The notes under the pieces were generated by a model. The model did not search any database. It was not told where the DNA came from and was given only the letters and a program-made list of their open reading frames with translations. A DNA stretch of 33,267 bases from assembly GCA_009692605.1 (NCBI GenBank), contig SHYV01000021.1, positions 1 to 33,267 on the forward strand, read 5' to 3'. The stretch comes from Myxococcales bacterium. Its GTDB lineage: Bacteria > Myxococcota_A > UBA796 > SXON01. Position numbers and translations under genes: made by a program. This document shows, piece after piece, positions 1,460-26,062 of this stretch. The stretch's first letter is position 1. Each line of letters starts with the position of its first letter.

Positions 1460-3343
1460 ATGGCCACCCCCGCACACGCCGACCCCGCCGTCCACCCCGC
1501 CAGCACCGCCGCGGGCTCCGAGAACCAGAGCTACGGCGCATGGTTGCTCTCGTGGATCATGACGTCCGACCACAAGCGCATCGGCATTCTTTACGGGCTC
1601 TCCGCGCTCTTCTTCTTCGTCCTTGGGGGCATTGAGGCGCTGATCATTCGTACGCAGCTGGCCCGCCCAGGCCTGCACGTGGTGGACCCCGCGACGTACA
1701 ACGCGCTGTTCACGATGCATGGCACCACCATGATCTTCCTTGGGGTGATGCCTTTCTCAGCGGCGTTCTTCAATTACCTAGTGCCCCTGCAGATCGGCGC
1801 GCGCGACGTCATCTTTCCGCGCCTGAACGCGTTCAGCTTCTGGCTGTTCCTGTGTGGCGGGATCATCCTGAACGTGCCCTTCGTGCTCACGCCGTTCGTG
1901 GACATGCGGGTCATTCCCGATGGTGGGTGGTTCGGCTACGCCACGCTGACCGAGAAGGAGTACAGTCCTGGCGCGTCGATTGACTTCTGGGTCTGCGGCC
2001 TGCAGATCCTCGGTATCGCCTCGATGGCGGCCGGTTTCAACTTCATCGTCACGATTTTCAACCTGCGCGCCCCCGGAATGACGCTCCTGCGCATGCCGGT
2101 GTTCACGTGGATGACCCTGGTCGTCCAGTTTCTGGTCGTGTTGTCTTTCCCGTGCATCACGATCGCGTTGGTCCTGCTTCTGTTCGACCGGCAGTTCGGC
2201 ACGCATTTCTACATCCCCGAGGGCGGCGGCGACCCGTTGCTGTGGCAGCACCTTTTCTGGCTGTTCGGGCACCCCGAGGTGTACATCCTGATCCTGCCGG
2301 CGATGGGGATCGTCTCGGAGGTTCTTCCGACCTTCTCCCGGAAGCCGCTCTTCGGCGCGCCGTTCGTCATCTTCTCGGGGATCACGATCGGGCTGCTCGG
2401 GTTCGGCGTGTGGTCGCACCACATGTTCACCACCGGCCTCGGGGCAGCGGCTGACGCGTCGTTCGCGGTCACGACCATGCTGATCGCCATCCCCACCGGC
2501 GTGAAGATCTTCAACTGGCTCGCGACGATCTGGGGTGGACAGCTTCGGCTGACGACCGCGATGTTGTTCGCGCTCGGCTTCGTCTGCATGTTCACCATGG
2601 GCGGGCTCTCGGGCATCATGCATGCCTCCCCTCCGGTCGACTTGCAGCAGCAGGACAGCTACTTCGTTGTAGCTCACTTCCACTACGTACTGTTCGGCGG
2701 GGCGGTCTTCGGGTTGCTTGCCGGCATTTACTACTGGTTCCCCAAGATGAGCGGGCGGTTCTTGTCCGAGTCCTGGGGCCGGGTGATCTTCGGTCTGGTG
2801 TTCGTCGGCTTCAATACGACGTTCTTCCCGATGCACATCGTCGGAGCCGCCGGTATGCCTCGCCGGATCTTCACCTACGAGGCCGGGCTTGGTTGGGAGA
2901 TCCCCAACATGATTGAGACGGCGGGCGCCTTCATCATCGCGTTCGGCGTGCTGTTCTTCATCATCGATTTGATCCGGTGCATGATGGCGAAAGAGATGAC
3001 CGCCGGCCCGAACCCCTGGGACGCGTCGAGCCTCGAGTGGGTGTGCGATTCCCCGCCCAAGGTGCACAACTTTGACATCACGCCGGTGGTGTACAGCGAT
3101 CGACCGGTCTTCGACAAGACCCACGGGCTGGGTCCCGGGTACTCGCTCCCGGTTGGCCATGAGCACATCCACATTCCGCCGCCGTCCCTCCGACCGCTGT
3201 TTCTGGCCATCGCGGTGGCGTGGTTTTTGGCCTCTTGGCTGATCGCCGGACAGGCGATGATGTTGGGCGTTGTCTCTGCGCTGCTCGCTACTGCGTTCAT
3301 GCTCTACTCCTGCTTCTCCTGGTTCCTCGAGCCCGGGCACTAG
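1460..3343 (+). CDS. ctaD: Cytochrome c oxidase subunit I with C-terminal extra TM helices
   Basis: HHMFTTG, WLFGHPEVYILILPAMGIVSE and VVAHFHYVLFGG heme-copper oxidase signatures; 627 aa. Confidence 0.97.
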   Translation: MATPAHADPAVHPASTAAGSENQSYGAWLLSWIMTSDHKRIGILYGLSALFFFVLGGIEALIIRTQLARPGLHVVDPATYNALFTMHGTTMIFLGVMPFSAAFFNYLVPLQIGARDVIFPRLNAFSFWLFLCGGIILNVPFVLTPFVDMRVIPDGGWFGYATLTEKEYSPGASIDFWVCGLQILGIASMAAGFNFIVTIFNLRAPGMTLLRMPVFTWMTLVVQFLVVLSFPCITIALVLLLFDRQFGTHFYIPEGGGDPLLWQHLFWLFGHPEVYILILPAMGIVSEVLPTFSRKPLFGAPFVIFSGITIGLLGFGVWSHHMFTTGLGAAADASFAVTTMLIAIPTGVKIFNWLATIWGGQLRLTTAMLFALGFVCMFTMGGLSGIMHASPPVDLQQQDSYFVVAHFHYVLFGGAVFGLLAGIYYWFPKMSGRFLSESWGRVIFGLVFVGFNTTFFPMHIVGAAGMPRRIFTYEAGLGWEIPNMIETAGAFIIAFGVLFFIIDLIRCMMAKEMTAGPNPWDASSLEWVCDSPPKVHNFDITPVVYSDRPVFDKTHGLGPGYSLPVGHEHIHIPPPSLRPLFLAIAVAWFLASWLIAGQAMMLGVVSALLATAFMLYSCFSWFLEPGH

Positions 3344-3360
3344 GCCCTTCGGCTTTCGTC

Positions 3361-3448
3361 TCTGGCTGCGGCCCCGCCCCCCGGCCCCCCGTTCCCGGCC
3401 CCCGTTCCCGCCCCCCGGCCCCCCGTTCCCGCCCCCCGCCCCCTGGAG
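3361..3448. repeat. C-rich low-complexity repeat between ctaD and ctaE (G-rich on - strand)
   Basis: Exact 21-bp repeat GCCCCCCGGCCCCCCGTTCCC at 3376-3396 and 3410-3430, within a continuous series of C-runs. Confidence 0.85.
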
Positions 3449-3454
3449 CGCCGC

Positions 3455-4078
3455 GTGTCTACTGCCACCGCTGACCTCACGTCCCCACACGGACATGAGC
3501 CCGCCCCCGAGTACTCCGTCACCGGTGTGCCGGCCTACAAGCTCGCGATGTGGACCTTTCTCGGGTCTGACTGTTTCTTCTTCGGGTCGCTGATTGGCAC
3601 CTACATGTCGTGTCGCGGGAAGAGCCTGAACGGCCCTTACCCTCTCGATGTGTTCGAGGCAGCGGTCACCTCGTTGTCCACCTTCGACTTGTTGTTGTCG
3701 TCGTTGTTCATGGTGCTCGCGGTACACTACGCGAAGCTTCGGGACATCCCGAAGTTCACGTTCTGGACGGTCCTCACCATGATCGGTGGCGCGATTTTTC
3801 TTAGCTTCCAAGCCTATGAGTTCACAAGCTTCGTGCACGAGGGCCTGACCCTCCAGTCGAACCTGTTCGGGGCCACGTTTTTTGTGCTGACTGGGTTCCA
3901 CGGCGCGCACGTCGCGATCGGGGTGTTGCTGCTCGGCTCCCTGCTGTGGTCCGTCCGTGGCGGCCACGTGGTGGACGCCGGCATCACGACAGAGGTGATC
4001 GGGCTGTACTGGCACTTCGTCGACATTGTGTGGATCCTCATCTTCACCCTCGTCTACCTGCTTGAGTTCACGTCATGA
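3455..4078 (+). CDS. ctaE: Cytochrome c oxidase subunit III (5-TM form)
   Basis: WTFLGSDCFFFGSLIGTY, FVLTGFHGAHVAIG and YWHFVDIVWI motifs; GTG start preceded by GGAG. Confidence 0.95.
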   Translation: MSTATADLTSPHGHEPAPEYSVTGVPAYKLAMWTFLGSDCFFFGSLIGTYMSCRGKSLNGPYPLDVFEAAVTSLSTFDLLLSSLFMVLAVHYAKLRDIPKFTFWTVLTMIGGAIFLSFQAYEFTSFVHEGLTLQSNLFGATFFVLTGFHGAHVAIGVLLLGSLLWSVRGGHVVDAGITTEVIGLYWHFVDIVWILIFTLVYLLEFTS

Positions 4079-4962
4079 GCGAGCCAACGGCCCCCGGCCA
4101 TGCCCATCACAACCCCATCCCCGGCTATCTGGCGGTGTTCGCCTTTCTGGTCGCGGTTACCGCCTTCGAGCTGCTGCCTTTGTTCGGGTTGCTGGACATC
4201 CCGGCGCCGTTGCTGCTGTTCTTGTCGGCGGTGAAGTTCACCGTGGTCGTGTTGTTCTTCATGCACCTCCATGGCGACAAGGCGATCAACAACCGGTTGT
4301 TCTTCGTCCCATTGTTCATGGCCACCGGCAGCGTCGGCGTCTTGATGGCGCTGTTCGGTACATGGTCGCTCCAATGGCCGGTCCGGTCACACCACGATGA
4401 AGTCACCGGCGTGAGGACGGAGGTCCGCGACAGCGACGAGATCGTCGCGCGCTACCGCGGGCGCTGGACGGACGCTTGCAACTCGTGGGTCAAGAGCGCC
4501 GCCACGGGCAACGTCTACTGCTCTTCGCCTTGGGTTGGCTATTCCAATCAGCCCGCCTACGACGCATTGAAGGTCGTGGCTGCGCCGCCGGACCCCGCGT
4601 TCGACGGGTGGGACGCCAAGTCGGCCGAGGACAAGAAGGCCGTGATGATGGTCAAGGGCAAGGAAGTCTACGACAGCAAGTGCGCCGCGTGCCATCAGGC
4701 CACGGGGTTGGGACTCGCCGGTACCTTCCCGCCCCTTGCGGGTGACCCGGTCGCCAACGGCGATGTCACCGAGCACATCACGATCATCCTGAAGGGGCTC
4801 AGCGGCAAGGAGATCAACGGGGTCAGCTACGCCGTTCCGATGCAGGCCTGGGCTTCGTTGCTGAACGATCAGGAGGTCGCGTCTGTCGTTACCTACGAGC
4901 GTGCCAGTTGGGGCAACTCTGGGGGGCCCGCCGAGCCCGCTCAGGTGGCCGCGCTGCGTTAG
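4075..4962 (+). CDS. Cytochrome c oxidase subunit IV (CtaF/COX4-pro like) fused to a C-terminal mono-heme cytochrome c domain
   Basis: N-terminal 3-TM region with VKFTVVVLFFMHLHGDK typical of bacterial subunit IV; C-terminal KGKEVYDSKCAACHQATGLGLAGTFPPLAGDP...VPMQAWASLLNDQEVASVVTY; ATGA overlap with ctaE. Confidence 0.88.
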   Translation: MSEPTAPGHAHHNPIPGYLAVFAFLVAVTAFELLPLFGLLDIPAPLLLFLSAVKFTVVVLFFMHLHGDKAINNRLFFVPLFMATGSVGVLMALFGTWSLQWPVRSHHDEVTGVRTEVRDSDEIVARYRGRWTDACNSWVKSAATGNVYCSSPWVGYSNQPAYDALKVVAAPPDPAFDGWDAKSAEDKKAVMMVKGKEVYDSKCAACHQATGLGLAGTFPPLAGDPVANGDVTEHITIILKGLSGKEINGVSYAVPMQAWASLLNDQEVASVVTYERASWGNSGGPAEPAQVAALR

Positions 4963-4971
4963 GCGACGGCG

Positions 4972-5925
4972 GTGCTCCTCAAGGGTGCTCTCCTGCTGCT
5001 GCTCGCCGTCTCATCGGCCTACGCCCACACCGGCGTGGTCATGCCGTGGGACAGCTCTGAGTTCGACTACTCGACGGCGCCGCCGGAGGCGTGGAAGGTG
5101 CTTGACCTTCACGTGACGGTGCTGCTCGGGGTGCTGCTCTTCTGCCTGCTCTACCATCAGGCGGTCACCACCTGGCGGGTGCGACACGGTTGGTCGGATG
5201 TACCCATTTCGCGTTGGCGGCAGGGGGCGTTCTACCTCGGCCAGATCGTCCTGCTGCTCAGCTTGAACGGGCCGGTTCACCACCTGTCGGACAATTACCT
5301 GTTCACAGCCCACATGGTGCAGCACCTGATGATGAACCTCATCTGGGCACCGTTGACCGTGCTCGGGTTGCCTGAATGGCTGGTAGAGGCCGCGCTGAGC
5401 GTGGGGTGGCTGCGAAAGGTGTCTGATTTTCTGGGCCGGCTACCTGTCAAGTTTCTGGTTTACAACGGGGCGTTGTTCTTCTGGCACGTCCCGTACATGT
5501 ACGATCTGGCGATCCGGAACCACAACATGCACATCGTCGAGCACATCATGTTCATGGTGACGTCGGTGATCGCCTGGTTCGGGCTGCTGTGCACAGCGCC
5601 TAGCGTACCCAAGCCGCACCGCTTCGCGCAGCTGCTTTACCTGTTCGCGATGACGCTCCCGATGAAGCTGCTCGGCGCGATCATCACCCTCTCTACGACG
5701 CTCATTTACCAAGGCTATGTAGGCGCTCCTCGCATCTGGGGCATCACGCCGTTGTTCGATCAGCGCTACGGTGGTTTGTTGATGTGGGTTCCGGGCGGGT
5801 TTGTGCTTTGGAGCTGCATGATCTACGTCTTCTCACAGTGGCTGAAGGAGGAGCGGGCCGCCCAGGCCGTGGAGGCCGCTGCTCACGCCTTGGCTCAGGG
5901 AGCCGGGGGGTCGGTGCGCGGGTGA
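4972..5925 (+). CDS. ctaG: CtaG (caa3-type) cytochrome c oxidase assembly factor
   Basis: Multi-TM protein with HMVQHLMMNLIWAPLTVLGLP, LFFWHVPYMYDLAIRNHNMHIVEH and MWVPGG motifs; GTG start. Confidence 0.88.
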   Translation: MLLKGALLLLLAVSSAYAHTGVVMPWDSSEFDYSTAPPEAWKVLDLHVTVLLGVLLFCLLYHQAVTTWRVRHGWSDVPISRWRQGAFYLGQIVLLLSLNGPVHHLSDNYLFTAHMVQHLMMNLIWAPLTVLGLPEWLVEAALSVGWLRKVSDFLGRLPVKFLVYNGALFFWHVPYMYDLAIRNHNMHIVEHIMFMVTSVIAWFGLLCTAPSVPKPHRFAQLLYLFAMTLPMKLLGAIITLSTTLIYQGYVGAPRIWGITPLFDQRYGGLLMWVPGGFVLWSCMIYVFSQWLKEERAAQAVEAAAHALAQGAGGSVRG

Positions 5926-8317: not shown

Positions 8318-9375
8318 TGCCAGATCCACGCGCTGGCGCACCCGTACCGATCGGTGTCCGCAAGGCCGACCACATCGCGCTCTGTCTGGACGGCGACGTC
8401 GGCTTCCGGACCAAGACCAACCTGTTCGACGACGTCGAACTGGTGCACGACGCGCTCCCGGATCTGGCGCTCGACGACATCGATCTATCCACAGTGTTCG
8501 CCGGAAAGACGCTCCGCGCGCCCTTGATCATCGCTGCCATGACGGGCGGCACGGCCGCCGCAGTAAAGATCAACCGGGATCTTGCCCGCTGTGCCCAACG
8601 GTTCGGGATCGGCTTTGCCTTTGGCAGCCAGCGGCCGCTCCTGGTCGGGGGCGTTCAGGATGGCTACCACGTCCGGGACGTCGCCCCTGACGTTTTGGTG
8701 CTCGGAAATATTGGCGTGGTTCAGGCCCGGGAGACCAGCTCGCATCGGCTCCGCAGCCTGGTGGACGAGACCGGCTGCGACGCGCTCTGCGTGCACCTGA
8801 ACCCCGCAATGGAGGTCGTTCAGCCGGGCGGGGATCGCGACTTCCGTGGGGGCATGCATACCATCCGGCGCCTTGTGGAGGAGCTTGGGGTGCCGATCGT
8901 GGTGAAGGAGACCGGGTGCGGGTTGTCCCGGAGCGTGGGGACCCGGCTACGCGCGCTGGGGGTGACCCACGTGGATACGTCCGGGGCGGGGGGCACGTCC
9001 TGGGTGGCCGTCGAGACCGCCCGGGTCCAAGACCCCGCTGCCCGCGCTGTTGGCGAGCGCTTTCGGGACTGGGGCATCCCGACAGCCGCCAGCGTATTGC
9101 AGCTGGCGGGGCTCGGACTGACGGTGTGCGCGACGGGTGGCGTCTCCAACGGGCTGGAAATTGCGAAGGCCCTGGCGCTCGGGGCAACGTGCGGCGGAGT
9201 CGCTCGGCCGTTCCTGCAGGCTCAAGCGCGGGGAGACCTCGATGACGCTGTCCAGATCGTGATCGAAGAGCTGCGCGTCGCCTGCTTGCTGACTGGTGCA
9301 CGGTCCGCGCGTGCGTTGGCGGATGTGCCCTGCGTGATCGGCGGACGGCTGCGCGCGTGGGCCCCGGCGCGGTGA
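8317..9375 (+). CDS. fni: Isopentenyl-diphosphate delta-isomerase, type 2 (FMN-dependent)
   Basis: RKADHIALCL, PLIIAAMTGG, FAFGSQRPLL, CVHLNPAMEVVQPGGDRDFRGG, VKETGCGLSR and VDTSGAGGTSW are type 2 IDI motifs; ATG 8317 overlaps the previous stop. Confidence 0.95.
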   Translation: MPDPRAGAPVPIGVRKADHIALCLDGDVGFRTKTNLFDDVELVHDALPDLALDDIDLSTVFAGKTLRAPLIIAAMTGGTAAAVKINRDLARCAQRFGIGFAFGSQRPLLVGGVQDGYHVRDVAPDVLVLGNIGVVQARETSSHRLRSLVDETGCDALCVHLNPAMEVVQPGGDRDFRGGMHTIRRLVEELGVPIVVKETGCGLSRSVGTRLRALGVTHVDTSGAGGTSWVAVETARVQDPAARAVGERFRDWGIPTAASVLQLAGLGLTVCATGGVSNGLEIAKALALGATCGGVARPFLQAQARGDLDDAVQIVIEELRVACLLTGARSARALADVPCVIGGRLRAWAPAR

Positions 9376-9425
9376 TCGGTTGAGCCCGCCGCGCACCAAC
9401 GTCTGATTCGGGCTACTGCTCAGGC

Positions 9426-9770
9426 ATGCGCTGGTCCCCCATCCTCCGCCTGTCCATCCTCCTCGTCGCGCTGTTGGCCGCGGGGATGTTCACCGTGCAA
9501 AACCTCTCGCGTACGACGCTGCTCTCCTTCGATGTGTACCTTTACGCATGGCGCCTCGCTTCACCGGTGGCGGTCCCGGCGTTGATTTGGGGGAGCTTCC
9601 TGTCCGGCTTTGCGGTAGCTGGTTTGATGGGGTGGATGCGCCGGAGCGGGCTGGCCCGCACGGTGAGCCGGCTCGAGCAGGAGGCGCTCCTCCGCTCTGC
9701 AGGGCGACCCGCTGGTGCGGCCCCGCCTGCGGACGCGACCGCGTCCCCCGGGGACGACTGGGGCCGATAG
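9426..9770 (+). CDS. LapA/DUF1049-like small membrane protein
   Basis: Two TM helices with F.VQN in the first loop, a polar tail and coiled-coil-like segment. Confidence 0.55.
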   Translation: MRWSPILRLSILLVALLAAGMFTVQNLSRTTLLSFDVYLYAWRLASPVAVPALIWGSFLSGFAVAGLMGWMRRSGLARTVSRLEQEALLRSAGRPAGAAPPADATASPGDDWGR

Positions 9771-9774
9771 CGTC

Positions 9775-10713
9775 CTACGGTCTGGCGAACCCGTTGACGC
9801 GCTGGTTCAGGAAGCGTTGGACCCGGTGATGGATGTTCTCGGGTTGCTCGATGAGCGCAGCGTGGCTGGCATCGGCTAGGACGAGCAGCTCCGCGCCGGG
9901 GATGGTCTTGACGATCTTCCGGGACAACCACATCGGCGTGAACGCGTCGCGCTCCGCGGCCACGATCAGGGCCGGAACTGCGATCCGGGGCAACACATCC
10001 CAGGCGTCGTGCTTCTGCACCTCGAGCACGTTGTGAAGGAATACGCGAAGGTCGAGCCGGGAGATGTGGCCGAGGTACTTCACCATGTCTTCCCGCCGGG
10101 CGTAGACGGGGTCGACGAGATCGAACCGCCACGTGACGAACCACGCGAGCGGGCTCCTCAGCAGCGGCCGCATGATGGAATGGGCACCCGCGCCCCGGCG
10201 ATCCACCAGGCGCGAGGCGATCTCGAAGATGCGGGGTGAACCGGAATAGTCGAAGAAGGTCTCGAGCGTCCTGCCGGCGCTCCCCAGCATCGGGACGATG
10301 GCGCTCACCCGGTCGGCGTGCGTTCGGTAGTATTCGAACAGCACCTGACATCCCATGGAATGGCCGACGAGCACGATCGGCGCCTCTCCGGCGACATCTC
10401 CCACCACCGCGTCCAGATCGGCGGCAAAGCGCTCGATGGACATGTCGGCCGTCTGCCAATCATCGACCCGATCGCTGCGGCCGTGGGCCCGGTAGTCCCA
10501 AACCACGACCGTGTAGTCGCGGGCGAAGAACTCGACGAAATAGCGCCAGAAGTAGGTGCTGACGCCGACGCCGTTGTTGCAGATGAGGATCGGGCCTTGT
10601 CCCACGGCGCGCCAGTACAGCCGCACGCCGTCATCGGCGCGGGCGAATCCGGATCGAATGCAGGGCTCAGCCACGGCGGGTGGCGTACCAGCATCGGAGG
10701 GGGAGGCGTTCAT
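9775..10713 (-). CDS. Alpha/beta hydrolase
   Basis: Nucleophile elbow GHSMG, VVVWDYRAHGRSD, and IAVPALIVAAERDAFTP near the catalytic acid, with a late His (ASHAALIEQP). Confidence 0.92.
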   Translation of the reverse strand: MNASPSDAGTPPAVAEPCIRSGFARADDGVRLYWRAVGQGPILICNNGVGVSTYFWRYFVEFFARDYTVVVWDYRAHGRSDRVDDWQTADMSIERFAADLDAVVGDVAGEAPIVLVGHSMGCQVLFEYYRTHADRVSAIVPMLGSAGRTLETFFDYSGSPRIFEIASRLVDRRGAGAHSIMRPLLRSPLAWFVTWRFDLVDPVYARREDMVKYLGHISRLDLRVFLHNVLEVQKHDAWDVLPRIAVPALIVAAERDAFTPMWLSRKIVKTIPGAELLVLADASHAALIEQPENIHHRVQRFLNQRVNGFARP

Positions 10714-10723
10714 CGTTAGGGGG

Positions 10724-10796
10724 TGGAGAAGACCGGAATCGAACCGGCGACCTCCGCATTGCGAACGCGGCGCTCTACCAATTGAGCTACTTCCCC
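10724..10796 (-). tRNA. tRNA-Ala (anticodon CGC)
   Basis: GGGGAAG TA GCTC AATTGGTA GAGC G CCGCG TTCGCAA TGCGG AGGTC GCCGG TTCGATT CCGGT CTTCTCC A folds as a 73-nt cloverleaf; G3:U70 alanine identity pair present; CCA not encoded. Confidence 0.95.
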
Positions 10797-10808
10797 AGCG
10801 GCGGGCAC

Positions 10809-10837
10809 CATGTAGCTGAGCTGGCCGGGCGTGTCAA
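10809..10837 (-). promoter_or_regulatory. Putative sigma70-type promoter for tRNA-Ala
   Basis: Perfect TTGACA (10837-10832), 17-nt spacer, TACATG (10814-10809, imperfect -10), 12 nt before the tRNA 5' end; lies just after the upstream CDS stop. Confidence 0.5.
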
Positions 10838-10840
10838 GGC

Positions 10841-12748
10841 TTAGGGGCTGCCGCCAGTGAGCCGGAGCAAGGTGTCGACCTCCCCATAGTCGCCCGCTAC
10901 GGCGCCGAACCGCATCGTCCGGAAGACTCGCCGGATGCATCTCCGATCGTCGGGACTGGCGTCCGCGGGCTCCAGCAGCTCTACGTTTCGGGCGATGCCG
11001 GTCGGGTCGACCATCGCCTTGAAATGGGCGTCAACCGCTCCGCGAATCGGGAGGCACGCAGCGAGCGCGGTGGCGTGGGTCTGGACGACTTTTGCGGCCG
11101 TACGGTCGAGCGCTACGGCTGTCGCACCGGCCGGCGGCGTCCAGTCCATCGCATCGGTCAGCTCCAGCTGGATTCGGCGCTCGATGCTCCTGCCACCCTC
11201 CAGTTGGACGAGCTCGTCGTGGGCTCCGAAGCCGTCGGCCTCGACCCGGATGCGGATCGGAGCATCGGGGTTGGTTGCGCGGTACTCCACCGTGCCGCCG
11301 TTGCCGACCACCAAGCCGTTGACGAAGACTTGGTCGGCAGGGGGGTCGAGCAGAAGCGTGAGCACGGCGTCGTTGGTGTGCGGGCCGTGGATCACCCCCG
11401 ATGCGACGAGCGCTGCGAACCCGAGCAGCAGGAGCGCGCCCGCTGCGAGGGCCTTCGGCACGGCGGACCGCCTCGACACCTTGAAGGTGATGGTCCTCCG
11501 CTCGCCGTGCTCGGTGATCAGGGTCAGGGCTGCGGAAGCGGTTCGCCTCGGCATGCGATCTGCGTGGACCAACACCTCGACCACCTGGGTAAGCAGGTTC
11601 GGGTCAAGCTGTGGCTTCACGATTTCCAGCCAGTCGTGGTCGGCGACGACGCGCCCGGGCATTCTGCCGTCTCCCTGATTTCGCACGATGAGCCGATGCC
11701 GGACCTTGGGCTCGCCTGTCCGGAGGACGACGGTGTCGGCGACATCCATGGCGAGCTTTGGGCCGCGGAGCCGGACAGGTTCCAGATCGGAGAGATCTAA
11801 GGGTTTTGGCTCCGATCTGGGTGGTGGTGGCGGCCGAGGAGGGGCTGCGCTCTGTGGCGGCACGGGCGCCGGCAGCACGGGCATGGGCAGCACGGGCATC
11901 GGCGGCACGGGCATGGGCAGCACGGGCATCGGCGGCAAGTGCGCCAGGCTCGGCGGCGGCATGTCGAGGAAGGGGCCGCTCGCGACCGATTCGGCAGTCT
12001 GGCCCTGGGGCGTCGGCCCAGGCGTGTACCCCGGCGACCCGTCTGGGCGGCGCCCGCCGGACTGGGACCATCGCTCGCGCTGAGCATCGTAGCGGGCGCG
12101 GCGGGCAGGATCCCGGAGCACCGTCCACGCCTGATCCAGGCCGTTCAGCATCTCGGCGGACAGCGCCAAGTCGTTGAGGTTCCTGGCCCAGCGGTACCGG
12201 ACACGGTACGCCTGCTCCAGCTGCTCCAAGGTGCTGGTTGGCTCCGCCTGAAGTGCTTCGTAGAAGTCGATCATGCTGGGCGGCGGCGTCGTTTCGTCGT
12301 CTGTGGTCCGACTCAACCCCGCTGCAGCCAGCGCTTCTCCGATCTGCTGGCTGACGAGCGCCTCAGCGAGCCCGAGCTCCCGGCCTTGGTTGCGAACAGC
12401 CTTCTCTACCGTCGGGCTGAACTCGCCTTCGCTAAGGATCCCGCGGATGTACACGCGGAAGCTCTCCACGTTCCGATGGGCGTGGGATGACGCCGTGTGG
12501 GCGCGATAGTCTTCTGGCTCTTCGGTGAGGGCCTTTCGGATCAGCGCGTTTTGCTTGATCAGAAATAGTGCTTCTACCTTAAATTTTGGGTTTGACTGCT
12601 GTCCCTGAGCCCAGCTCCGGCGCTTCTTGATGACGGCTTCGACATCAGATGTGTCCGACTCCTCAGGCACCCCGTAGTACGCATAGAGCGACGTCTGGCC
12701 CACGGTGGCCAGGAAGCGATCAAGCTCTTCTAGCTCTCGACGATCCAT
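10841..12748 (-). CDS. Membrane-anchored protein with two J-like (HPD-less) regions, Pro-rich repeats, Ig/BACON-like region, one TM, PEGA-like and AgmX-like C-terminal regions
   Basis: FYEALQAEPTSTLEQLEQAYR...MLNGLDQAWTVLRDPARRARYDAQ resembles a J domain without HPD; earlier SLYAYYGVPEESDTSDVEAVIKKRR; TM ALAAGALLLLGFAALVASGVI; DPPADQVFVNGLVVGNGG PEGA-like; last gene of the - strand Hsp70 operon. Confidence 0.75.
   Translation of the reverse strand: MDRRELEELDRFLATVGQTSLYAYYGVPEESDTSDVEAVIKKRRSWAQGQQSNPKFKVEALFLIKQNALIRKALTEEPEDYRAHTASSHAHRNVESFRVYIRGILSEGEFSPTVEKAVRNQGRELGLAEALVSQQIGEALAAAGLSRTTDDETTPPPSMIDFYEALQAEPTSTLEQLEQAYRVRYRWARNLNDLALSAEMLNGLDQAWTVLRDPARRARYDAQRERWSQSGGRRPDGSPGYTPGPTPQGQTAESVASGPFLDMPPPSLAHLPPMPVLPMPVPPMPVLPMPVLPAPVPPQSAAPPRPPPPPRSEPKPLDLSDLEPVRLRGPKLAMDVADTVVLRTGEPKVRHRLIVRNQGDGRMPGRVVADHDWLEIVKPQLDPNLLTQVVEVLVHADRMPRRTASAALTLITEHGERRTITFKVSRRSAVPKALAAGALLLLGFAALVASGVIHGPHTNDAVLTLLLDPPADQVFVNGLVVGNGGTVEYRATNPDAPIRIRVEADGFGAHDELVQLEGGRSIERRIQLELTDAMDWTPPAGATAVALDRTAAKVVQTHATALAACLPIRGAVDAHFKAMVDPTGIARNVELLEPADASPDDRRCIRRVFRTMRFGAVAGDYGEVDTLLRLTGGSP
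11881..11937 (-). repeat. 30-bp direct repeat in the coding sequence (PPMPVLPMPV repeats)
   Basis: 27-bp exact copies GCATGGGCAGCACGGGCATCGGCGGCA at 11881-11907 and 11911-11937 (+ strand orientation). Confidence 0.9.
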
Positions 12749-12787
12749 CTATCGTAGCCTCTATCAGGTAATGGCCCCGCTAACGGG

Positions 12788-14395
12788 TCAGTGGACCGTC
12801 GCTGCGGCCACTCTCGTCCTTGCGGCGTCGAACCCTTCGGAAGAGAGTGCCCCTTTCAGTACGATGCGGGCGCGGCGTGAGAGCCGCGTCTCGATGTCGG
12901 TGACGTCGACCTCAAGCAACTGGTTCATGGTGTACCGGTACACCACTTCGATTGGCGTGCCCCGAGGGCGTGGCGGCAGGTTGTCGAGGATGACCTCGCC
13001 GATGACAGTGACCTCGTCTGGGTGGGTCCCGACCCCCTCGGTCACCTCCACGCGCACGGCGGTCATTCCGTCGTACGCGTAGGCAAACCGGCCGCGGCGT
13101 TCGCAGGGCAGGGGGGTGAACTCAGGGATCAACGTGACGACACGCTGGTTGAGTTGGACGTCGAGGGCGACCATGCCGAGCGTGTGGCTGGCGACATCGG
13201 CGATGCGTAGCCCGGGCAGCGTACCGGCACCCGGGTTGGGCTCGGCCGGTGCCGACGTCTCTGGGGGCCCGGGCTCATTTGTCTCATTGAGCATGTTCGA
13301 ACGCCAGTTATGGAAAGCGAGGTGCTGTGGTCGGTGGCGGAGTACGGCGGCGAGGGCTGCTCCAAGCGCCACGCACTCGTCCGGGTTGATGCCGACCACT
13401 GGGGCCTTGCCCGAGAGTCTGCCCATCATCTCTGCGACTGCTGGCATTCGGGTCGATCCGCCTGTGAGCAGGATGTCGTCGATTTCAGCCCAGCTCATCT
13501 TGGCCTTCTCGAGGACCAGTCCGCAGGTATCCGCACACTGTCCAAGCAGATCCTTCGTGATGTCTTCGAACTCTTCACGCATGACGGGTACAATCGTCCG
13601 GTGACCCCGAAAGTTCACGGGGATCACCGCTCGCGGCTTCGTGGACAGCGAGATCTTCGCGTGGAGGCACCGCTCGTACAGCTCCTGATGGGTCTGCGCC
13701 TCGTCGCGGGGGTCGACGCCGAATTTCTGGACGAACTGATCGGCGACGTGGTTCAGCAGCCTGTCGTCCCAGTCCTTTCCACCTAGCTCGGCGTTACCGT
13801 CGGTGGCGATGGTACGGAGCGTGGTCCCCCGGAGCTCCATCACGGTGACGTCGAACGTCCCACCGCCAAGGTCGAAGACCAGGAGGTGCCGGTCGCCACC
13901 TTTGCGCTCCACGCCGTACGCGATGGCCGCTGCGGTGGGCTCGTTGATGATCGACAGGCCGCTGAAACCTGCGAGAGCGCCGGCCTCGGCGGTGGCTCCG
14001 CGCTGCGCGCTGTTGAAGTAGGCCGGCACGGTGATCACCGCGTTCTTCACGGGGTGACCCAGCGCCTCCTCAGCGTCGTCCTTGAGCTTACGTAGGATGA
14101 ACGAGGAGAGCTCCTGCGGGCCGTACCTTCGGCCGAACAGTTCGGTGGTGTGGCCCTCCTCCCCCATGTGCCGTTTGATGAAGCGCACAACATTGGATGC
14201 GTCCACCAGGACCATCTTGACCGCTTCGTCGCCGACTACGCACTCATCCCGCTCGTAGAAGTGGATGACCGAAGCGGTGGTCCGCTGCCCTTCGCCGTTG
14301 GGAATGACGACGGGCTTGCCGAACGCATCCACGTAGGCGACCGCTGAAAAGGTTGTCCCGAGGTCGATGCCCAGAATGATCCCGTCGTCAGGCAC
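12788..14395 (-). CDS. Short Hsp70/DnaK-family protein without recognisable C-terminal helical lid
   Basis: GIDLGTTFSAVAYV, INEPTAAAIAYG, VFDLGGGTFDVTVME and LLTGGSTRMPAV; ends soon after a beta-SBD-like region (535 aa). Confidence 0.93.
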   Translation of the reverse strand: MPDDGIILGIDLGTTFSAVAYVDAFGKPVVIPNGEGQRTTASVIHFYERDECVVGDEAVKMVLVDASNVVRFIKRHMGEEGHTTELFGRRYGPQELSSFILRKLKDDAEEALGHPVKNAVITVPAYFNSAQRGATAEAGALAGFSGLSIINEPTAAAIAYGVERKGGDRHLLVFDLGGGTFDVTVMELRGTTLRTIATDGNAELGGKDWDDRLLNHVADQFVQKFGVDPRDEAQTHQELYERCLHAKISLSTKPRAVIPVNFRGHRTIVPVMREEFEDITKDLLGQCADTCGLVLEKAKMSWAEIDDILLTGGSTRMPAVAEMMGRLSGKAPVVGINPDECVALGAALAAVLRHRPQHLAFHNWRSNMLNETNEPGPPETSAPAEPNPGAGTLPGLRIADVASHTLGMVALDVQLNQRVVTLIPEFTPLPCERRGRFAYAYDGMTAVRVEVTEGVGTHPDEVTVIGEVILDNLPPRPRGTPIEVVYRYTMNQLLEVDVTDIETRLSRRARIVLKGALSSEGFDAARTRVAAATVH

Positions 14396-14401
14396 GCGGG
14401 G

Positions 14402-14998
14402 CTACTCTCGTGAGTTGGTGCGGGGCTCACCGCTGCCACCCGGTACGCCGCTCTCCCGGCCACCTACGCCGACCGCGGTCTCGCCCTCCGCCTCGATCCC
14501 GAACCGCGCGACAGCTACTTCTTCTGCTCTGAGCTGTTTTTCACCTCGCACGAACCCGCGCTTCAGCACGGCCTGAACCTTCCAGTCGTCGTCGGCTGTG
14601 GGCGCGGCGACCACTCGGACGGCCTTGTGAAGCTTACGGTCGAAGCGCTCTATGCTCTCGCAGGGCACGACATCCCGGCGGTAGAGCATCTCCAAAAACT
14701 CGTCGAGCAGGTACTGGAAGCTGTCGGCGATCACGTCGCTGCTCATCTCCTGCCGGGCCAGAGACTGCTGGAACCAGTTCAGGCTGTCGTAGAACAGGAG
14801 CAGGTCAAGGAGGAAGGGCTTCTCTTGCTGGAAGACGAAGTCGTCCTTGTACTGACGGAGCTCCTCATAGAGGTGATCGAACGCCTTCTGCTGGGTGTCG
14901 TCCTGCTTCATCCGGGCTTCGATCAAGTCGTGGAGGGCCTGAAGCCGCGCCCCGATGGCTGCGGCGCCTGGCCCGTCGATCGACGGATCACCCGCCAT
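14402..14998 (-). CDS. GrpE-like nucleotide exchange factor homolog (divergent)
   Basis: Helical N-terminal region then SIERFDRKLHKAVRVVAAPTADDDWKVQAVLKRGFVRGEKQLRAEEVAVARF, matching GrpE C-terminal pattern; sits between two hsp70-like genes. Confidence 0.72.
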   Translation of the reverse strand: MAGDPSIDGPGAAAIGARLQALHDLIEARMKQDDTQQKAFDHLYEELRQYKDDFVFQQEKPFLLDLLLFYDSLNWFQQSLARQEMSSDVIADSFQYLLDEFLEMLYRRDVVPCESIERFDRKLHKAVRVVAAPTADDDWKVQAVLKRGFVRGEKQLRAEEVAVARFGIEAEGETAVGVGGRESGVPGGSGEPRTNSRE

Positions 14999-16997
14999 TT
15001 TGGCCCCCCGCGAGCTCGGTCGCGAGGTTGATGAACGTGCCCTGCAGCTCGACTGACTCGTTGCAGAAGTGGTAGTCCTCGGCCCGCGACGCGAGGCTGC
15101 GCAGGAAGTCAGGCCGAACCTGATTGCCGACTCCGATGGTGATGACGCGGCCTCCGGACGTGCGGATCCGGTTGACCTCGGCCACAGCGGCCTCCGGATC
15201 GTCCGGATGACCGTCGGTCAGCACCATGGTGATGCGCTGCACTCCAGCGCGATTCTTCGTCATGTCCCGCGCCGCGAGCAGGCCCTCCGCCAGCGGCGTA
15301 GAGCCTATGGGGGTGAGCCCTCGGACCGCGCTCTCCAGCTTCGCACCGTCGCTCGTAAGCGGGCAGATGACCCCGCCGGGGAAGGCCACGACGGCGATCT
15401 GCCGGTTCGGACCGAGCGAGCGTTCGATGAAGGACAGCGCTGCCTTGCGCGCCTCCTCGATGTTCGCGCCGTACATCGACCCGGAGCAGTCCATCAGGAG
15501 CACGATGCTCATCGGTGCGCGATTCCGGGCCAGGTCGTCGAGAGTGACGGACCCCGCCGCGAGCCGATGCGCCAAGGTCTGCCCGCTGTCGAGGTCCATC
15601 GACTCGACCTCGACGATGCCGTTCGCGTTGTACCGGAACGTGACTGACAGGCGCGACTTTCCTGCCGCGCGGGCGGGGATGCCGTAGAACTCGAAGTGCC
15701 CGAGCACGGCGCACTCCAACGGGTCCACGTTCTCACCCTGAACCAGCCACAGGTCCATCGTGCTCTGGCCGTCGTGGGTTGTGACGTAGTCATCCCGGGT
15801 GCGCTCGCATGGAATACGCGAGTTTCTTTCGACGATCTTGGAGTTGTATAGCTTGCCGTCACGGTAGACGACCATGCCGAGCGAATGCGATGTGACGTCG
15901 TGCGTGCGGATGTCCACCGGCGGGGCTTCGCCGCTGACCCGGCTGGCCTCGATCGCGGCGGTGAGCGCTGCCCCGAGGGCGACGCACTCGTCTGGGTTGA
16001 TGTCGGTGGCGGCGTCGCGGCCGAACACCTTCTTGACCATGTCGCGCACCATCGGCATGCGCGTCGATCCGCCTGCGAGCACGACGGTGTCGATTTCGTC
16101 GGGCCTGAGCTTCGCGTCGTCGAGCACGTCCTTGGTCAGCGCCTCGCATCGCGCCAGCAGCCCGGCGGTGAGATCCTCGAACTTCTCCCGCGTGAGGTCC
16201 AGCCGGAGGATCTTCCCCTTGAAGTCGTAGAACAGGTTGACCTTCGGCCGCTTGGAGAGCGAGAGCTTGGCGCTCGTCGCTTTCGCCCGAAGGTCATGGT
16301 AGGCGGCCAGATCGTCCAGCGGGTCGATGGTGTGGCGGGCCTTGAACTGGTCGGCGGCGAACTCAATCAGCGCGTCGTCCCAGTCCTTGCCGCCCAGCAT
16401 GTGGTCGCCTGTGGTGGCGATCACGCTGATGTCGCGCCCGGCGATCTCCACGATGGAGACGTCGAACGTGCCGCCGCCGAGGTCATAGACCAGCACCTTC
16501 TTGGGCTCGCCCATGTTGGACAGGCCGTAGGCGAACGCCGCGGCCGTCGGCTCGTTGAGCAGCGCGAGCACCTTGAGGCCTGCGTATTCGCCGGCACGGA
16601 TGGTCGCCCGGCGCTGCTTGTCGCCGAAATAAGCAGGGACGGTGATCACGGCCTGATCGATGCGGTGGCCCAGCCGCAGCTCGGCGTCGTGCTTCAGCTT
16701 GGCCAGGATGAACCCGGACAGTCGCTCGGGGCTGTAGGCCTCGCCGCGGTACTCGAAGGTGTAGTCCTCCTCGCCCATGTGGCGCTTGATGAACTCAATC
16801 ACCTGTTCCGGGTACGCTACAGCTGACTGCTTGGCGTAGGTCCCGATGATCACCTCATCGCCCTCGAAGAGGATGACCGATGGGGTGATGCGCTCGCCTT
16901 CCGCGTTGTGCAGGATCTCGGGGACCCCGTACTTGTTCACGTGGGCGATGGCGGAGAATGTGGTGCCGAGGTCGATACCAACGGCGCGGGTGGACAT
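14988..16997 (-). CDS. Hsp70/DnaK-family protein with C-terminal von Willebrand factor A domain
   Basis: VGIDLGTTFSAIAHV, LNEPTAAAFAYG, VYDLGGGTFDVSIVE, VLAGGSTRMPMV; then APMSIVLLMDCSGSMYG (MIDAS DxSxS) and TMVLTDGHPDDP. Overlaps the grpE-like start by 11 bp. Confidence 0.95.
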   Translation of the reverse strand: MSTRAVGIDLGTTFSAIAHVNKYGVPEILHNAEGERITPSVILFEGDEVIIGTYAKQSAVAYPEQVIEFIKRHMGEEDYTFEYRGEAYSPERLSGFILAKLKHDAELRLGHRIDQAVITVPAYFGDKQRRATIRAGEYAGLKVLALLNEPTAAAFAYGLSNMGEPKKVLVYDLGGGTFDVSIVEIAGRDISVIATTGDHMLGGKDWDDALIEFAADQFKARHTIDPLDDLAAYHDLRAKATSAKLSLSKRPKVNLFYDFKGKILRLDLTREKFEDLTAGLLARCEALTKDVLDDAKLRPDEIDTVVLAGGSTRMPMVRDMVKKVFGRDAATDINPDECVALGAALTAAIEASRVSGEAPPVDIRTHDVTSHSLGMVVYRDGKLYNSKIVERNSRIPCERTRDDYVTTHDGQSTMDLWLVQGENVDPLECAVLGHFEFYGIPARAAGKSRLSVTFRYNANGIVEVESMDLDSGQTLAHRLAAGSVTLDDLARNRAPMSIVLLMDCSGSMYGANIEEARKAALSFIERSLGPNRQIAVVAFPGGVICPLTSDGAKLESAVRGLTPIGSTPLAEGLLAARDMTKNRAGVQRITMVLTDGHPDDPEAAVAEVNRIRTSGGRVITIGVGNQVRPDFLRSLASRAEDYHFCNESVELQGTFINLATELAGGQNGG

Positions 16998-17118
16998 GCG
17001 TGCGCTCCAGCTGACAGGTGCGGCAATCCCGGGTGGACTACCGGGGCCGTCTTATCGTGTTCCTGGCGGGGTGTCGTCGCGAATGGGGTTTCTTTGGGAT
17101 ATTGAGGCTCCGCTCTGG

Positions 17119-17772
17119 ATGCTTTACGCCGTGCCCGACGCTCGTGTCATCCTCGCCACAGCGTCCCGGTGGCGCGCGAAGTTGCTGGAGGACACCGGGC
17201 TGACGGTGGTGCTCGTGCCGGCGCCCATTGACGAGGATGCGGTGCGCGCCGCAGATGCCGTCTCACTCGCCGCCGCCCGCGCCGCAGCGAAGGCGGACGC
17301 TGTCTGGAGGCTGATCTGCGGGCAGGGGCCATCCTCCGGCGGTGAGGAAGCGGGGCTACCGGAGCTCGGCGTGATCGTCATCGGCGCGGATCAGGTCGCT
17401 CACATCGACGGGGAGCCGTTCGGCAAGCCCCTCAACCCCGACGATCACCGGGCTCGGCTGCGGTCGCTTCGGGGTCGGACGCACGTGCTGTCCACAGGGG
17501 TCGCCTTCCGTGGATCGGGTGTCGTGTCGCTTGGGCAGGCTGCTGACTTCGTGGAACACACGGGCATCCGGTTTCGCGCTGACGTGACCGACGCCGAGAT
17601 CGACGCCTACGTGGCTTCCGGGGATGGGAGCGGCTGCGCGGGCGGGTACCGCGCCGAGGGGCCGGGCGCCTGGCTCATCGCCGGGGTCGAGGGGGATTGG
17701 TCGAACGTGATCGGGCTTCCGGTGTTTGGGGTCCTGGACCGGCTTCGGCGCTGCGGGGTCAGGGTTTCCTGA
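17119..17772 (+). CDS. maf: Maf-family nucleotide pyrophosphatase
   Basis: VILATASRWRAKLLEDTGL, VIGADQVAHIDGEPFGKP, RGRTHVLSTGVAF, CAGGYRAEGPGAWLIAGVEGDWSNVIGLPVF; start inferred (ORF track start 16846 overlaps the opposite-strand gene). Confidence 0.9.
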   Translation: MLYAVPDARVILATASRWRAKLLEDTGLTVVLVPAPIDEDAVRAADAVSLAAARAAAKADAVWRLICGQGPSSGGEEAGLPELGVIVIGADQVAHIDGEPFGKPLNPDDHRARLRSLRGRTHVLSTGVAFRGSGVVSLGQAADFVEHTGIRFRADVTDAEIDAYVASGDGSGCAGGYRAEGPGAWLIAGVEGDWSNVIGLPVFGVLDRLRRCGVRVS

Positions 17773-21177: not shown

Positions 21178-23004
21178 GTGAGGCTCGATGCTAAGTCCGC
21201 GTCACCCATGAACTACGGCTTCGTCATCGACACGCGCTCTTGCATCGGCTGCCATGCCTGCTCGACCGCCTGCAAGAGCGAGAACGAGGTGCCGCTCGGT
21301 GTGAATCGGACCTGGGTGAAGTACACCGAGACCGGCCGGTTTCCCGACACCCGGCGGGCGTTTCAGGTCACGCGCTGCAATCACTGCGCGAACCCGCCCT
21401 GCGTGCGCATCTGTCCGGTCACGGCGATGTACCAGCGCAAAGACGGCATCGTCGAGTTCGACTCCTCGGTGTGCATCGGCTGCAAGGCGTGCCTGCAGGC
21501 CTGCCCCTATGACGCGATCTACATCGATCCCGACAGCGGAACGGCCGCCAAGTGCCACTTCTGCGGTCACCGGGTGGAAAACGGGCTGGAGCCCGCCTGC
21601 GTCGTGGTGTGTCCGACGCACTCGATCATCGCTGGCGACATGGACGACCCCAAGAGTGAGATCGCCCGCGTGCTCGCGCGGAACGCCACCACGGTGCGCA
21701 AGCCCGAGCAGGGGACCGCACCGAAGCTGTTTTACATCGACGGGACTGACGTCGCGATGCACCCCACCGCGACGGATCGCGAGCCCGCCGGTCTCATGTA
21801 CACCGATGTGCTCGATGCGCACGGCCGGCACCGGGGTCCGGAGGACGGATACGCGGACGCGACCTTCTACCAGGTGCGGCTCAAGCTGGATGACGGGTAC
21901 GACGGGGGTGGGCCCGGAGAACGGGGAGAGGCGGGCTCGCACGCGAGGATCGAGACCGGGGCGCGCACCTCGGCCTCGGGAGCCCCGATCCGCGACCCCG
22001 GGGAGCAGGGTGTCCCCTCCGGCGGACCGATCCAGATCCAGCCTGGCCGGATGGCCGGGCACATGGTGTCGCAGGTGGCCAACACGGTGTTCCACAAGGT
22101 GCCCTGGCACTGGCAGGTCCCGGCGTACACGGTGTCGAAGTCGGTCGGGACCGGGGCCTTCCTGCTGGTCGCCGCGCTCGGGCCGACCGGGGCTGGCTTC
22201 CGCGCGCCGGAGGAGGCGACGCTGGTCATCGGGCTGGTGGGCATACTAGCCACGCTGCTGACCACGGCGTTGCTGGTCGGCGATCTGGAGCGGCCTGAGC
22301 GGTTCCTGCGCATCCTGACCCGGCCGCAGTGGCGGAGCTGGTTGACGCGGGGGGCGTTCCTGCTGGTGGGTTTCTCCATCGTCTCCACGTTGCTCTGGGT
22401 CGCGCAGTCCTGCCTTTGGCTTGGCTGGTGCTGGCCCGGCGGTGAGGAGACCCTGGCGCTGGCCGGGCTGGGTCTCGCGGTGCTCACGATCCCGCTGGCC
22501 ATCGGTGCGGCCGTCTACACCGCCTTCCTGTTTGCCCAGTGCGAGGGCCGGGACCTCTGGCAGAGCCCGCTGCTCCCCGCCCACATGTTGGTCCACTCCG
22601 TGATGATGGGTGGGGCGGTGGTGGGCGTGGTGACCGTCGTCGTGCCCAACGCGGGGTTGGCCGCGGTCGCGCCCCCGCTGCTAGGCGCGATGCTGGTCGT
22701 GGACCTCTTCTTCATCCTCGCCGGAGAGTTCGGCGTCGCCCACGCCAGCGAAGCGGCCGCCCGTGCCGCGCGCGAAATCTCGCATGGGAAATACTCGCGA
22801 CAGTTTTGGGTGGGGGCCATCGGCATCGGACATGTCGCGCCCCTGCTGCTGCTCGCCGCGTCGGCGGGTTGGGCTTCCATGGTTGGGTCGGGAGCGGAGG
22901 GTCCGCGGCTCCTGGTCGCCCTCGCAGGCCTGCTCGCCTGCGTCGGGCTCTATCTTTACGAGCACGCGTTTGTGATGGCCCCGCAGGAGATCCCGAACTC
23001 ATGA
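21178..23004 (+). CDS. Fe-S electron transfer subunit fused to NrfD/PsrC-type membrane subunit
   Basis: Ferredoxin-like clusters CIGCHACSTAC, CNHCANPPCVRICP, CIGCKACLQACPYDAI, CHFCGH...CVVVCP; then about 8 hydrophobic helices. Start may be ATG 21208. Confidence 0.9.
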   Translation: MRLDAKSASPMNYGFVIDTRSCIGCHACSTACKSENEVPLGVNRTWVKYTETGRFPDTRRAFQVTRCNHCANPPCVRICPVTAMYQRKDGIVEFDSSVCIGCKACLQACPYDAIYIDPDSGTAAKCHFCGHRVENGLEPACVVVCPTHSIIAGDMDDPKSEIARVLARNATTVRKPEQGTAPKLFYIDGTDVAMHPTATDREPAGLMYTDVLDAHGRHRGPEDGYADATFYQVRLKLDDGYDGGGPGERGEAGSHARIETGARTSASGAPIRDPGEQGVPSGGPIQIQPGRMAGHMVSQVANTVFHKVPWHWQVPAYTVSKSVGTGAFLLVAALGPTGAGFRAPEEATLVIGLVGILATLLTTALLVGDLERPERFLRILTRPQWRSWLTRGAFLLVGFSIVSTLLWVAQSCLWLGWCWPGGEETLALAGLGLAVLTIPLAIGAAVYTAFLFAQCEGRDLWQSPLLPAHMLVHSVMMGGAVVGVVTVVVPNAGLAAVAPPLLGAMLVVDLFFILAGEFGVAHASEAAARAAREISHGKYSRQFWVGAIGIGHVAPLLLLAASAGWASMVGSGAEGPRLLVALAGLLACVGLYLYEHAFVMAPQEIPNS

Positions 23005-23029
23005 ACCCAGTTCCCACCAGCGGCACCCC

Positions 23030-26058
<3,029 letters not shown>

Positions 26059-26062
<4 letters not shown>

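Follow-up and report, generated by a model that had tools for sequence, protein, structure and literature searches.

Gene content of the locus

We describe here a four-gene operon, K1-E-K2-J, that lies in a 33,267-nucleotide stretch of DNA (hereafter the window), namely positions 1 to 33,267 of contig SHYV01000021.1 in the Myxococcales bacterium assembly GCA_009692605.1. All four genes are on the minus strand, and their open reading frame (ORF) coordinates match exactly the 11-bp overlap (K1/E), 6-bp gap (E/K2) and 39-bp gap (K2/J) given in an earlier sequence-only reading of the window. That reading assigned to the genes an Hsp70 with a von Willebrand factor A (vWA) domain, a GrpE homologue, a second Hsp70 and a membrane protein with J-like regions; Pfam matches to HSP70 plus VWA, GrpE and HSP70, respectively, confirm the first three assignments. 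The genes and their domains are as follows.

14988..16997, minus strand: K1, 669 amino acids (aa), an Hsp70 with a nucleotide-binding domain (NBD), the beta part of the substrate-binding domain (SBD-beta), no lid, and a C-terminal vWA domain (Pfam HSP70 and VWA, alignment of 19 orthologues, AlphaFold2 [AF2] model)
15060..15506, minus strand: residues 498-646 of K1, the vWA domain, which takes the place of the Hsp70 lid (Pfam PF00092; complete metal-ion-dependent adhesion site, MIDAS)
14402..14998, minus strand: E, 198 aa, GrpE-like nucleotide exchange factor (Pfam GrpE; profile matches to GrpE in the PDB)
12788..14395, minus strand: K2, 535 aa, second lid-less Hsp70, composed of an NBD, a variable Pro-rich linker and SBD-beta (Pfam HSP70; family alignment)
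10841..12748, minus strand: J, 635 aa, predicted single-pass membrane protein with two J-like domains (profiles, AF2, transmembrane [TM] prediction)
12494..12709, minus strand: probable J-like domain 1 of J, residues 14-85 (QQ/MQ-[SAN]-NPK motif, hhalign, AF2 helical pattern)
12086..12268, minus strand: J-like domain 2 of J, residues 161-221, with a J fold lacking HPD (hhalign and Foldseek)
11474..11746, minus strand: putative beta-sandwich (BACON/Ig-like) region of J, N-terminal to the TM helix (weak BACON matches, in relatives only; conserved alignment block)
11390..11446, minus strand: predicted TM helix of J, residues 435-453, N-terminal side cytosolic (TM prediction in 18 members; K/R-rich N-terminal flank)
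10853..11365, minus strand: predicted periplasmic part of J, PEGA-like and myxo_SS_tail (AgmX/PglI C-terminal, TonB-like), with the Cys pair C565 and C604 (matches in relatives)

The host genome is a 3.89-Mb draft of 186 contigs, 79% complete. It carries a canonical dnaK followed by dnaJ on one separate contig (C83), a canonical dnaK adjoining grpE on another (C36), and several further Hsp70 and J proteins. Because the canonical genes are located elsewhere, K1-E-K2-J is an addition to the housekeeping dnaKJ-grpE set, as the sequence-only reading had supposed, and identity with that set is rejected. A scan for sigma-70 promoters and terminators detected nothing above chance.

Two lid-less Hsp70s, one with a vWA domain

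The Pfam HSP70 model matches K1 at 1.3e-136 and K2 at 6.3e-113, and the VWA model matches K1 at 4.9e-17. Neither Hsp70 reaches the TIGR02350 DnaK equivalog cut-off of 822.55 (438.8 bits for K1, 386.4 bits for K2) or the NCBIfam cut-off for HscA. The K1 proteins in the 19-orthologue alignment are 54-94% identical, and 65-94% identical over most of the host's order. The ATPase residues D8, T11, K70, E171, D194, T199 and D201 (DnaK numbering) are invariant in 18/18 K1 and 18/18 K2 sequences, and DnaK structures, ATP-bound docked forms among them, are the best matches to the K1 model from AF2 (pLDDT, the per-residue confidence score, 79.9 on average).

Outside the ATPase site both proteins are altered. 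K1 and K2 retain SBD-beta and lack the SBD-alpha lid, so that K2 has 19 residues beyond the end of SBD-beta versus 132 in DnaK. In place of the DnaK linker VLLLD, K1 has IRTHD, and K2 has a long and variable Pro-rich insert together with V-x-I-x-D. In both proteins the loop that contributes to the GrpE signature of DnaK is shorter by 6-7 residues and, as in HscC, a lobe-I segment of approximately 23 residues is absent (PMC8215388). In DnaK, D35 of the J-domain HPD motif contacts R167 and Q378 (PMC8215388; PMC7289447), both of which are retained in DnaK, HscA, HscC and an accessory Hsp70 of Rhodococcus. In our alignments R167 is replaced by K, A or S in 17/18 K1 sequences and by S in 18/18 K2 sequences; Q378 is replaced by T, A or other residues in K1 (Q in one) and by A or T in K2.

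In K1 the vWA domain sits where the lid would be. Its MIDAS is complete, with D503/S505/S507 (DxSxS) in 19/19 orthologues, T567 in 18/19 and D595 in 19/19, which agrees with the metal-ion dependence proposed earlier for the machine. No evident signal peptide or TM segment was found in K1; since the vWA domain follows an Hsp70 core in such a protein, it is most likely cytosolic, and the adhesion role also proposed earlier is not supported. Intracellular vWA domains serve in protein binding, not in adhesion. We found no Hsp70-vWA fusion in the open-access literature, and the main text of the published study of the 15 Myxococcus xanthus Hsp70s does not mention vWA.

The GrpE-like protein

E matches Pfam GrpE at 3.4e-12 (46.8 bits, above the cut-off of 25.8), and its best score against the canonical GrpE equivalogs of NCBIfam is 34.9 bits, below the cut-off of 176. 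In profile comparisons it scored 78.5 with a GrpE encoded on a Rhodococcus plasmid, 36.8 with one on a Streptomyces plasmid, 34.3 with the GrpE of the host genome and 33.1 with that of Escherichia coli. By these profile scores, E is closer to the GrpE of another accessory module than to canonical GrpE.

The membrane J-like protein

J comprises, in order, J-like domain 1, a helical segment that may be TerB/DjlA-like, J-like domain 2, a Pro-rich linker, the BACON/Ig-like block, the TM helix and, in most members, a tail of a PEGA-like and a myxo_SS_tail domain. The Pfam DnaJ match in J itself is below threshold (21.1 bits, cut-off 27.8); among 18 J proteins of relatives, DnaJ is matched in 16, PEGA in nine and myxo_SS_tail (NF033768) in five. 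Residues 1-235 were modelled by AF2 with a pLDDT of 90.3. Domain 2 is matched to canonical J domains by hhalign at 97.8%, and its Foldseek matches to J domains have a probability of 1.00 and a TM-score of up to 0.85 of the target, at E-values of 0.02 and above. HPD is missing from the canonical place of this domain in 20 of the 21 members; in one J protein (locus L055) the letters HPD are present at a non-canonical place.

Domain 1 shows the J helix pattern in the AF2 model and, in 21/21 members, a near-invariant QQ/MQ-[SAN]-NPK motif where HPD would be, in the loop that follows the long helix. Its hhalign matches are weak to canonical J domains (14.5%) and moderate to the J domain of the Rhodococcus accessory module (71%), and on these profiles we call it probably J-like. 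The earlier description of J as a membrane protein with J-like regions thus holds for the single predicted TM segment and for the J fold of domain 2; it is less firm for domain 1, and the HPD motif is missing.

A TM segment was predicted in each of the 18 J members, with a second, weaker hydropathy peak in two of them (L046 and L053), and the membrane tethering suggested earlier would be provided by J through residues 435-453. The K/R-rich N-terminal flank of this segment, read by the positive-inside rule, suggests that the J-like domains are cytosolic and that the PEGA/TonB-like tail is periplasmic. Most J members have a conserved pair of Cys residues approximately 40 residues apart in the C-terminal tail.

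In one family of the order (f3), we also observed a second protein of approximately 430-466 aa with J-like domain 1 (QxNPK), a helical segment and a C-terminus judged by eye to be methyltransferase-like. The approximate starts of this protein are L157:8619, L159:7767, L160:9052, L161:9034 and L162:8411.

Distribution and gene order

At an E-value of at most 0.001, E was present in 56/58 relatives, one genome (G042) having a weak match elsewhere in its genome only; true E orthologues among the 58 are 40-81% identical. We then surveyed the phylum with an even sample of 284 genomes, 49 of the host's order and 235 others, at an E-value limit of 1e-10. E occurred in 46/49 genomes of the order and in 0/235 outside it. 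The SBD-beta-plus-vWA part of K1 had full-length matches in 47/49 genomes of the order; outside the order, such matches as there were covered the vWA part alone, never the SBD-beta junction, and thus none of those matches appears to be an Hsp70-vWA fusion. The N-terminal domain of J did not occur outside the host's order in the phylum search. Outside the phylum, the distribution is based on a peptide-pattern scan and a plasmid search. The scan, of 84,980 species, gave 51 loci with the same gene set wherever the contig was long enough; 37 of these have the complete ordered set, and the remaining 14 are mostly interrupted by contig ends. The records are metagenome-assembled genomes of uncultured bacteria, several of them under Myxococcota or Deltaproteobacteria titles. 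The plasmid search gave no match to E or J.

The order K1-E-K2-J is invariant in 20 loci from five families of the order and in the window (at one locus, L060, the contig ends before J). It thus extends beyond the closest relatives; restriction to them would have counted against the sequence-only reading. A chance cluster of genes is rejected, because the order is kept in intact loci of six families. The K1 and K2 trees each largely track the family groupings, which is the pattern expected from vertical inheritance. Judged from these surveys and trees, K1-E-K2-J is a single-copy, vertically inherited locus across one order of Myxococcota.

In G042 (L167:7973-11584), which gave no E match at 1e-10, K1 and K2 still lie side by side with a degenerate J, and E is missing between K1 and K2, which are separated by a gap of approximately 30 bp. 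With E lost, the machine may run there without a GrpE of its own. Five metagenome-assembled genome records (L063, L066, L074, L091 and L105) that bear the name Bifidobacterium breve or Klebsiella pneumoniae also carry the locus; their species labels look wrong.

The neighbouring genes are conserved as well, and the setting of K1-E-K2-J is a stable chromosomal one. A gene for a TPR and Zincin_1 metallopeptidase directly follows J in 30/39 four-gene loci (e.g. L056:9798-10616), and more distant conserved neighbours are TGT, QueA, S1 and UDG. No GTPase was found among the annotated conserved neighbours, two neighbour clusters being unannotated and no GAP1 model having been run. The genes that flank the operon in the window are the following.

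9775..10713, minus strand: alpha/beta hydrolase gene, 127 bp downstream, a possible operon member (near 23/39 four-gene loci)
16846..17772, plus strand: Maf-like gene upstream of K1, a context marker that is not proposed as part of the system (at 38/39 four-gene loci)

Relationship to known Hsp70 systems

A tree with DnaK, HscA, HscC and Hsp70s of the host genome recovers K1 as one monophyletic group and K2 as another, and it places both in one clade with a lid-less Hsp70 from a plasmid of Rhodococcus pseudokoreensis (ultrafast bootstrap 100, SH-like approximate likelihood-ratio test 99). A smaller Hsp70 tree agrees, and K1 and K2 do not group with HscA or HscC of E. coli. Because branches in the tree are long, the clade rests on these support values together with the shared deletions.

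The Rhodococcus plasmid (NZ_CP070617; L180, 543-13977) carries TniB/TniQ transposition genes, a recombinase and the series Hsp70 - J/TPR/TM - GrpE - FtsK/SpoIIIE, possibly a mobile accessory chaperone module. It is the one close module found outside the order; further Hsp70 regions on plasmids are canonical dnaK-grpE-dnaJ sets or unannotated. Like the window operon, it has a lid-less Hsp70 with the same two NBD deletions, and a J protein with a QN-NP-type J domain and a C-terminal hydrophobic segment; its GrpE is the one that gave E the best profile score among those compared. Unlike the window operon, it has one Hsp70, no vWA domain, R167 and Q378 in place, and linked FtsK and transposition genes.

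A similar theme was described by Kaur et al. 2020, who found an accessory HSP70, GrpE, a second HSP70 and DnaJ in GAP1-N2 neighbourhoods (PMC7159879, section 29). That theme shares with the window operon the grouping of an HSP70, a GrpE and a protein with a DnaJ domain, the DnaJ protein bearing FNIII (beta-sandwich) or TPR domains and often being membrane-linked. The second HSP70, present in a subset, is reduced and without a peptide-binding domain, whereas K2 keeps SBD-beta and lacks only the lid; the vWA domain of K1 also sets the window operon apart, and a GAP1-N2/TRAFAC GTPase as in that theme was not found among the annotated conserved neighbours. In addition, the GAP1-N2 theme is found mainly in Actinobacteria and Firmicutes, whereas K1-E-K2-J is near-universal and housekeeping-like in one order of Myxococcota.

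Other specialised systems are less similar. In E. coli, HscC with DjlC/DjlB is a dedicated membrane Hsp70 (PMC8215388), comparable with the window operon in its specialised Hsp70 and membrane-anchored J partners, and HscC shares with K1 and K2 the lobe-I deletion and the lack of the GrpE loop of DnaK. However, HscC lies outside the clade, retains R167 and a lid of reduced length, has no vWA domain and is thought not to use GrpE. CsdK1 and CsdK2, PilZ-DnaK proteins of M. xanthus, resemble K1 in that a regulatory domain is added to an Hsp70, and they have a dedicated client; the domain is PilZ, not vWA, and the part of that report considered here mentions no dedicated GrpE/J operon (PMC10313047). 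With the canonical DnaK-DnaJ-GrpE system, the window operon has in common the three functional classes and the ATPase residues, whereas the lid, the linker hydrophobics, the HPD/R167 pair and the GrpE loop are all altered.

Other lid-less or K2-like Hsp70s in the phylum and the host genome (L187-L194) had no comparable gene set in the lists of neighbouring ORFs, which were not scanned for families. One of them, on contig C87 of the host genome (L193), is an Hsp70 of 526 aa (9115-10692) adjoining a small HPD-type J protein (J-domain match at 10771-10977), and the two form a separate accessory pair.

Since K1, K2 and E are closest to an accessory module, and since such sets of Hsp70, GrpE, second Hsp70 and DnaJ had already been reported by Kaur et al., the operon is a variant and not the undescribed kind of system that the sequence-only reading had made of it. 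From the sequence relationships, accessory Hsp70 modules most likely make up a broader class of which the operon is a derived representative, and on present comparisons the features that are its own are the vWA domain, the duplicated Hsp70 and the altered contact between J and Hsp70.

Proposed mechanism and alternatives

We propose, with a probability of roughly 0.55, that K1-E-K2-J is a dedicated, membrane-anchored accessory Hsp70 machine that remodels an envelope-associated protein. J would be a docking scaffold in the inner membrane that recruits K1 and K2; these ancient sister Hsp70s would bind and hydrolyse ATP at J, and E, as their dedicated exchange factor, would drive nucleotide exchange. 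The metal-binding vWA domain of K1 most likely recognises a particular client or partner and keeps hold of it, taking over part of the role of the lost lid, and lid-less K2 probably cooperates with K1. Because J lacks HPD and the contact residues R167 and Q378 are altered in K1 and K2, ordinary J-stimulated ATP hydrolysis is unlikely, and hydrolysis is probably triggered by engagement of the client or the vWA domain, or by a different J contact. The output would probably be ATP-driven remodelling or turnover of the envelope-associated protein. Dedicated Hsp70s at the membrane have precedents in HscC with DjlC/DjlB (PMC8215388) and in DnaK1-DnaJ3-GrpE at type IV pilus motors (PMC9239167). Complex formation, ATPase activity and the trigger are inferred from sequence, and the client and the process are guesses, for which the downstream TPR-zincin peptidase, not constant among members, hints at quality control.

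Several observations weigh against parts of this proposal. The J protein of one of the 21 loci (L059) keeps HPD at the canonical place, and domain 1 as a J domain is moderately supported by its profile and model. Position 167 is K in 11 of 18 K1 sequences, a conservative replacement with which pairing to an acidic residue might be preserved. L048 and L056 lack the periplasmic part of J, which argues that the tail is not essential to the core. Finally, loci of the window's genus lack the TPR-zincin gene, and the 79%-complete host genome gave no Zincin_1 match.

To our knowledge, the Hsp70 systems characterised to date are considered dependent on the HPD-R167 contact and, for tight client binding, on the lid. 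A stronger form of the proposal, a working Hsp70 cycle in which the HPD/R167 trigger has been lost on both sides, a metal-dependent vWA clamp replaces the helical lid and the whole is anchored across the inner membrane, is put forward tentatively, and we hold it to be somewhat more doubtful than not. The HPD-R167 contact and the lid are both altered in a near-universal, strongly conserved locus of an entire order, so that K1-E-K2-J, if active, would be a natural experiment on the elements that the Hsp70 cycle cannot do without. Accessory Hsp70-GrpE-J modules have until now been interpreted chiefly as conflict systems. With this operon they also gain a representative that is stable and inherited vertically, an argument that some of them have a housekeeping role at the envelope.

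Three other explanations were considered. The operon might encode a regulatory Hsp70 system for surface polysaccharide, pili or motility, likened by description to SglK/StkA of M. xanthus and to the cyanobacterial DnaK1-DnaJ3-GrpE, which acts at type IV pilus motors (PMC9239167). Myxobacteria do employ accessory Hsp70s for such tasks (PMC4319316, PMC8265645), and the tail family of J, NF033768, is named after AgmX/PglI; however, the conserved neighbours of the locus include no genes for pili, gliding or polysaccharide, and we consider this explanation unlikely.

Alternatively, the system might serve general quality control of the envelope, K1/K2 and E extracting or holding misfolded inner-membrane proteins and passing them to the putative TPR-zincin peptidase. 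The position of the peptidase gene directly after J in most four-gene loci, and the near-universal, single-copy occurrence of the locus in the order, are consistent with this, but the window's genus lacks the peptidase; as a general account it has, in our estimate, a low probability. We know of no settled role for Zincin_1 proteins.

Defence genes are usually patchy and mobile. A thresholding switch in biological conflict (immunity or self-killing), put together when an invader enters and then setting free an effector, is the prediction of Kaur et al. 2020 for the GAP1-N2 theme. It would fit the outline of the gene set and the nearest relatives by tree and profile, which belong to the Rhodococcus plasmid module with transposition genes and an FtsK-type ATPase close by, but it is improbable given a near-universal, single-copy locus whose trees track families, its place among housekeeping genes (in relatives TGT, QueA, S1, UDG and Maf), the lack of a variable effector or conserved GTPase neighbour among those seen, and the lack of a PADLOC match for any of the four proteins. 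A mobile or phage-defence island is rejected as the main explanation on the same stable neighbours and PADLOC result.

Other genes in the window

Apart from the operon, the window contains cytochrome oxidase genes at 1460-5925 and, at 21178-26062, genes for a molybdopterin oxidoreductase and Fe-S/NrfD proteins, which are probably part of a respiratory complex.

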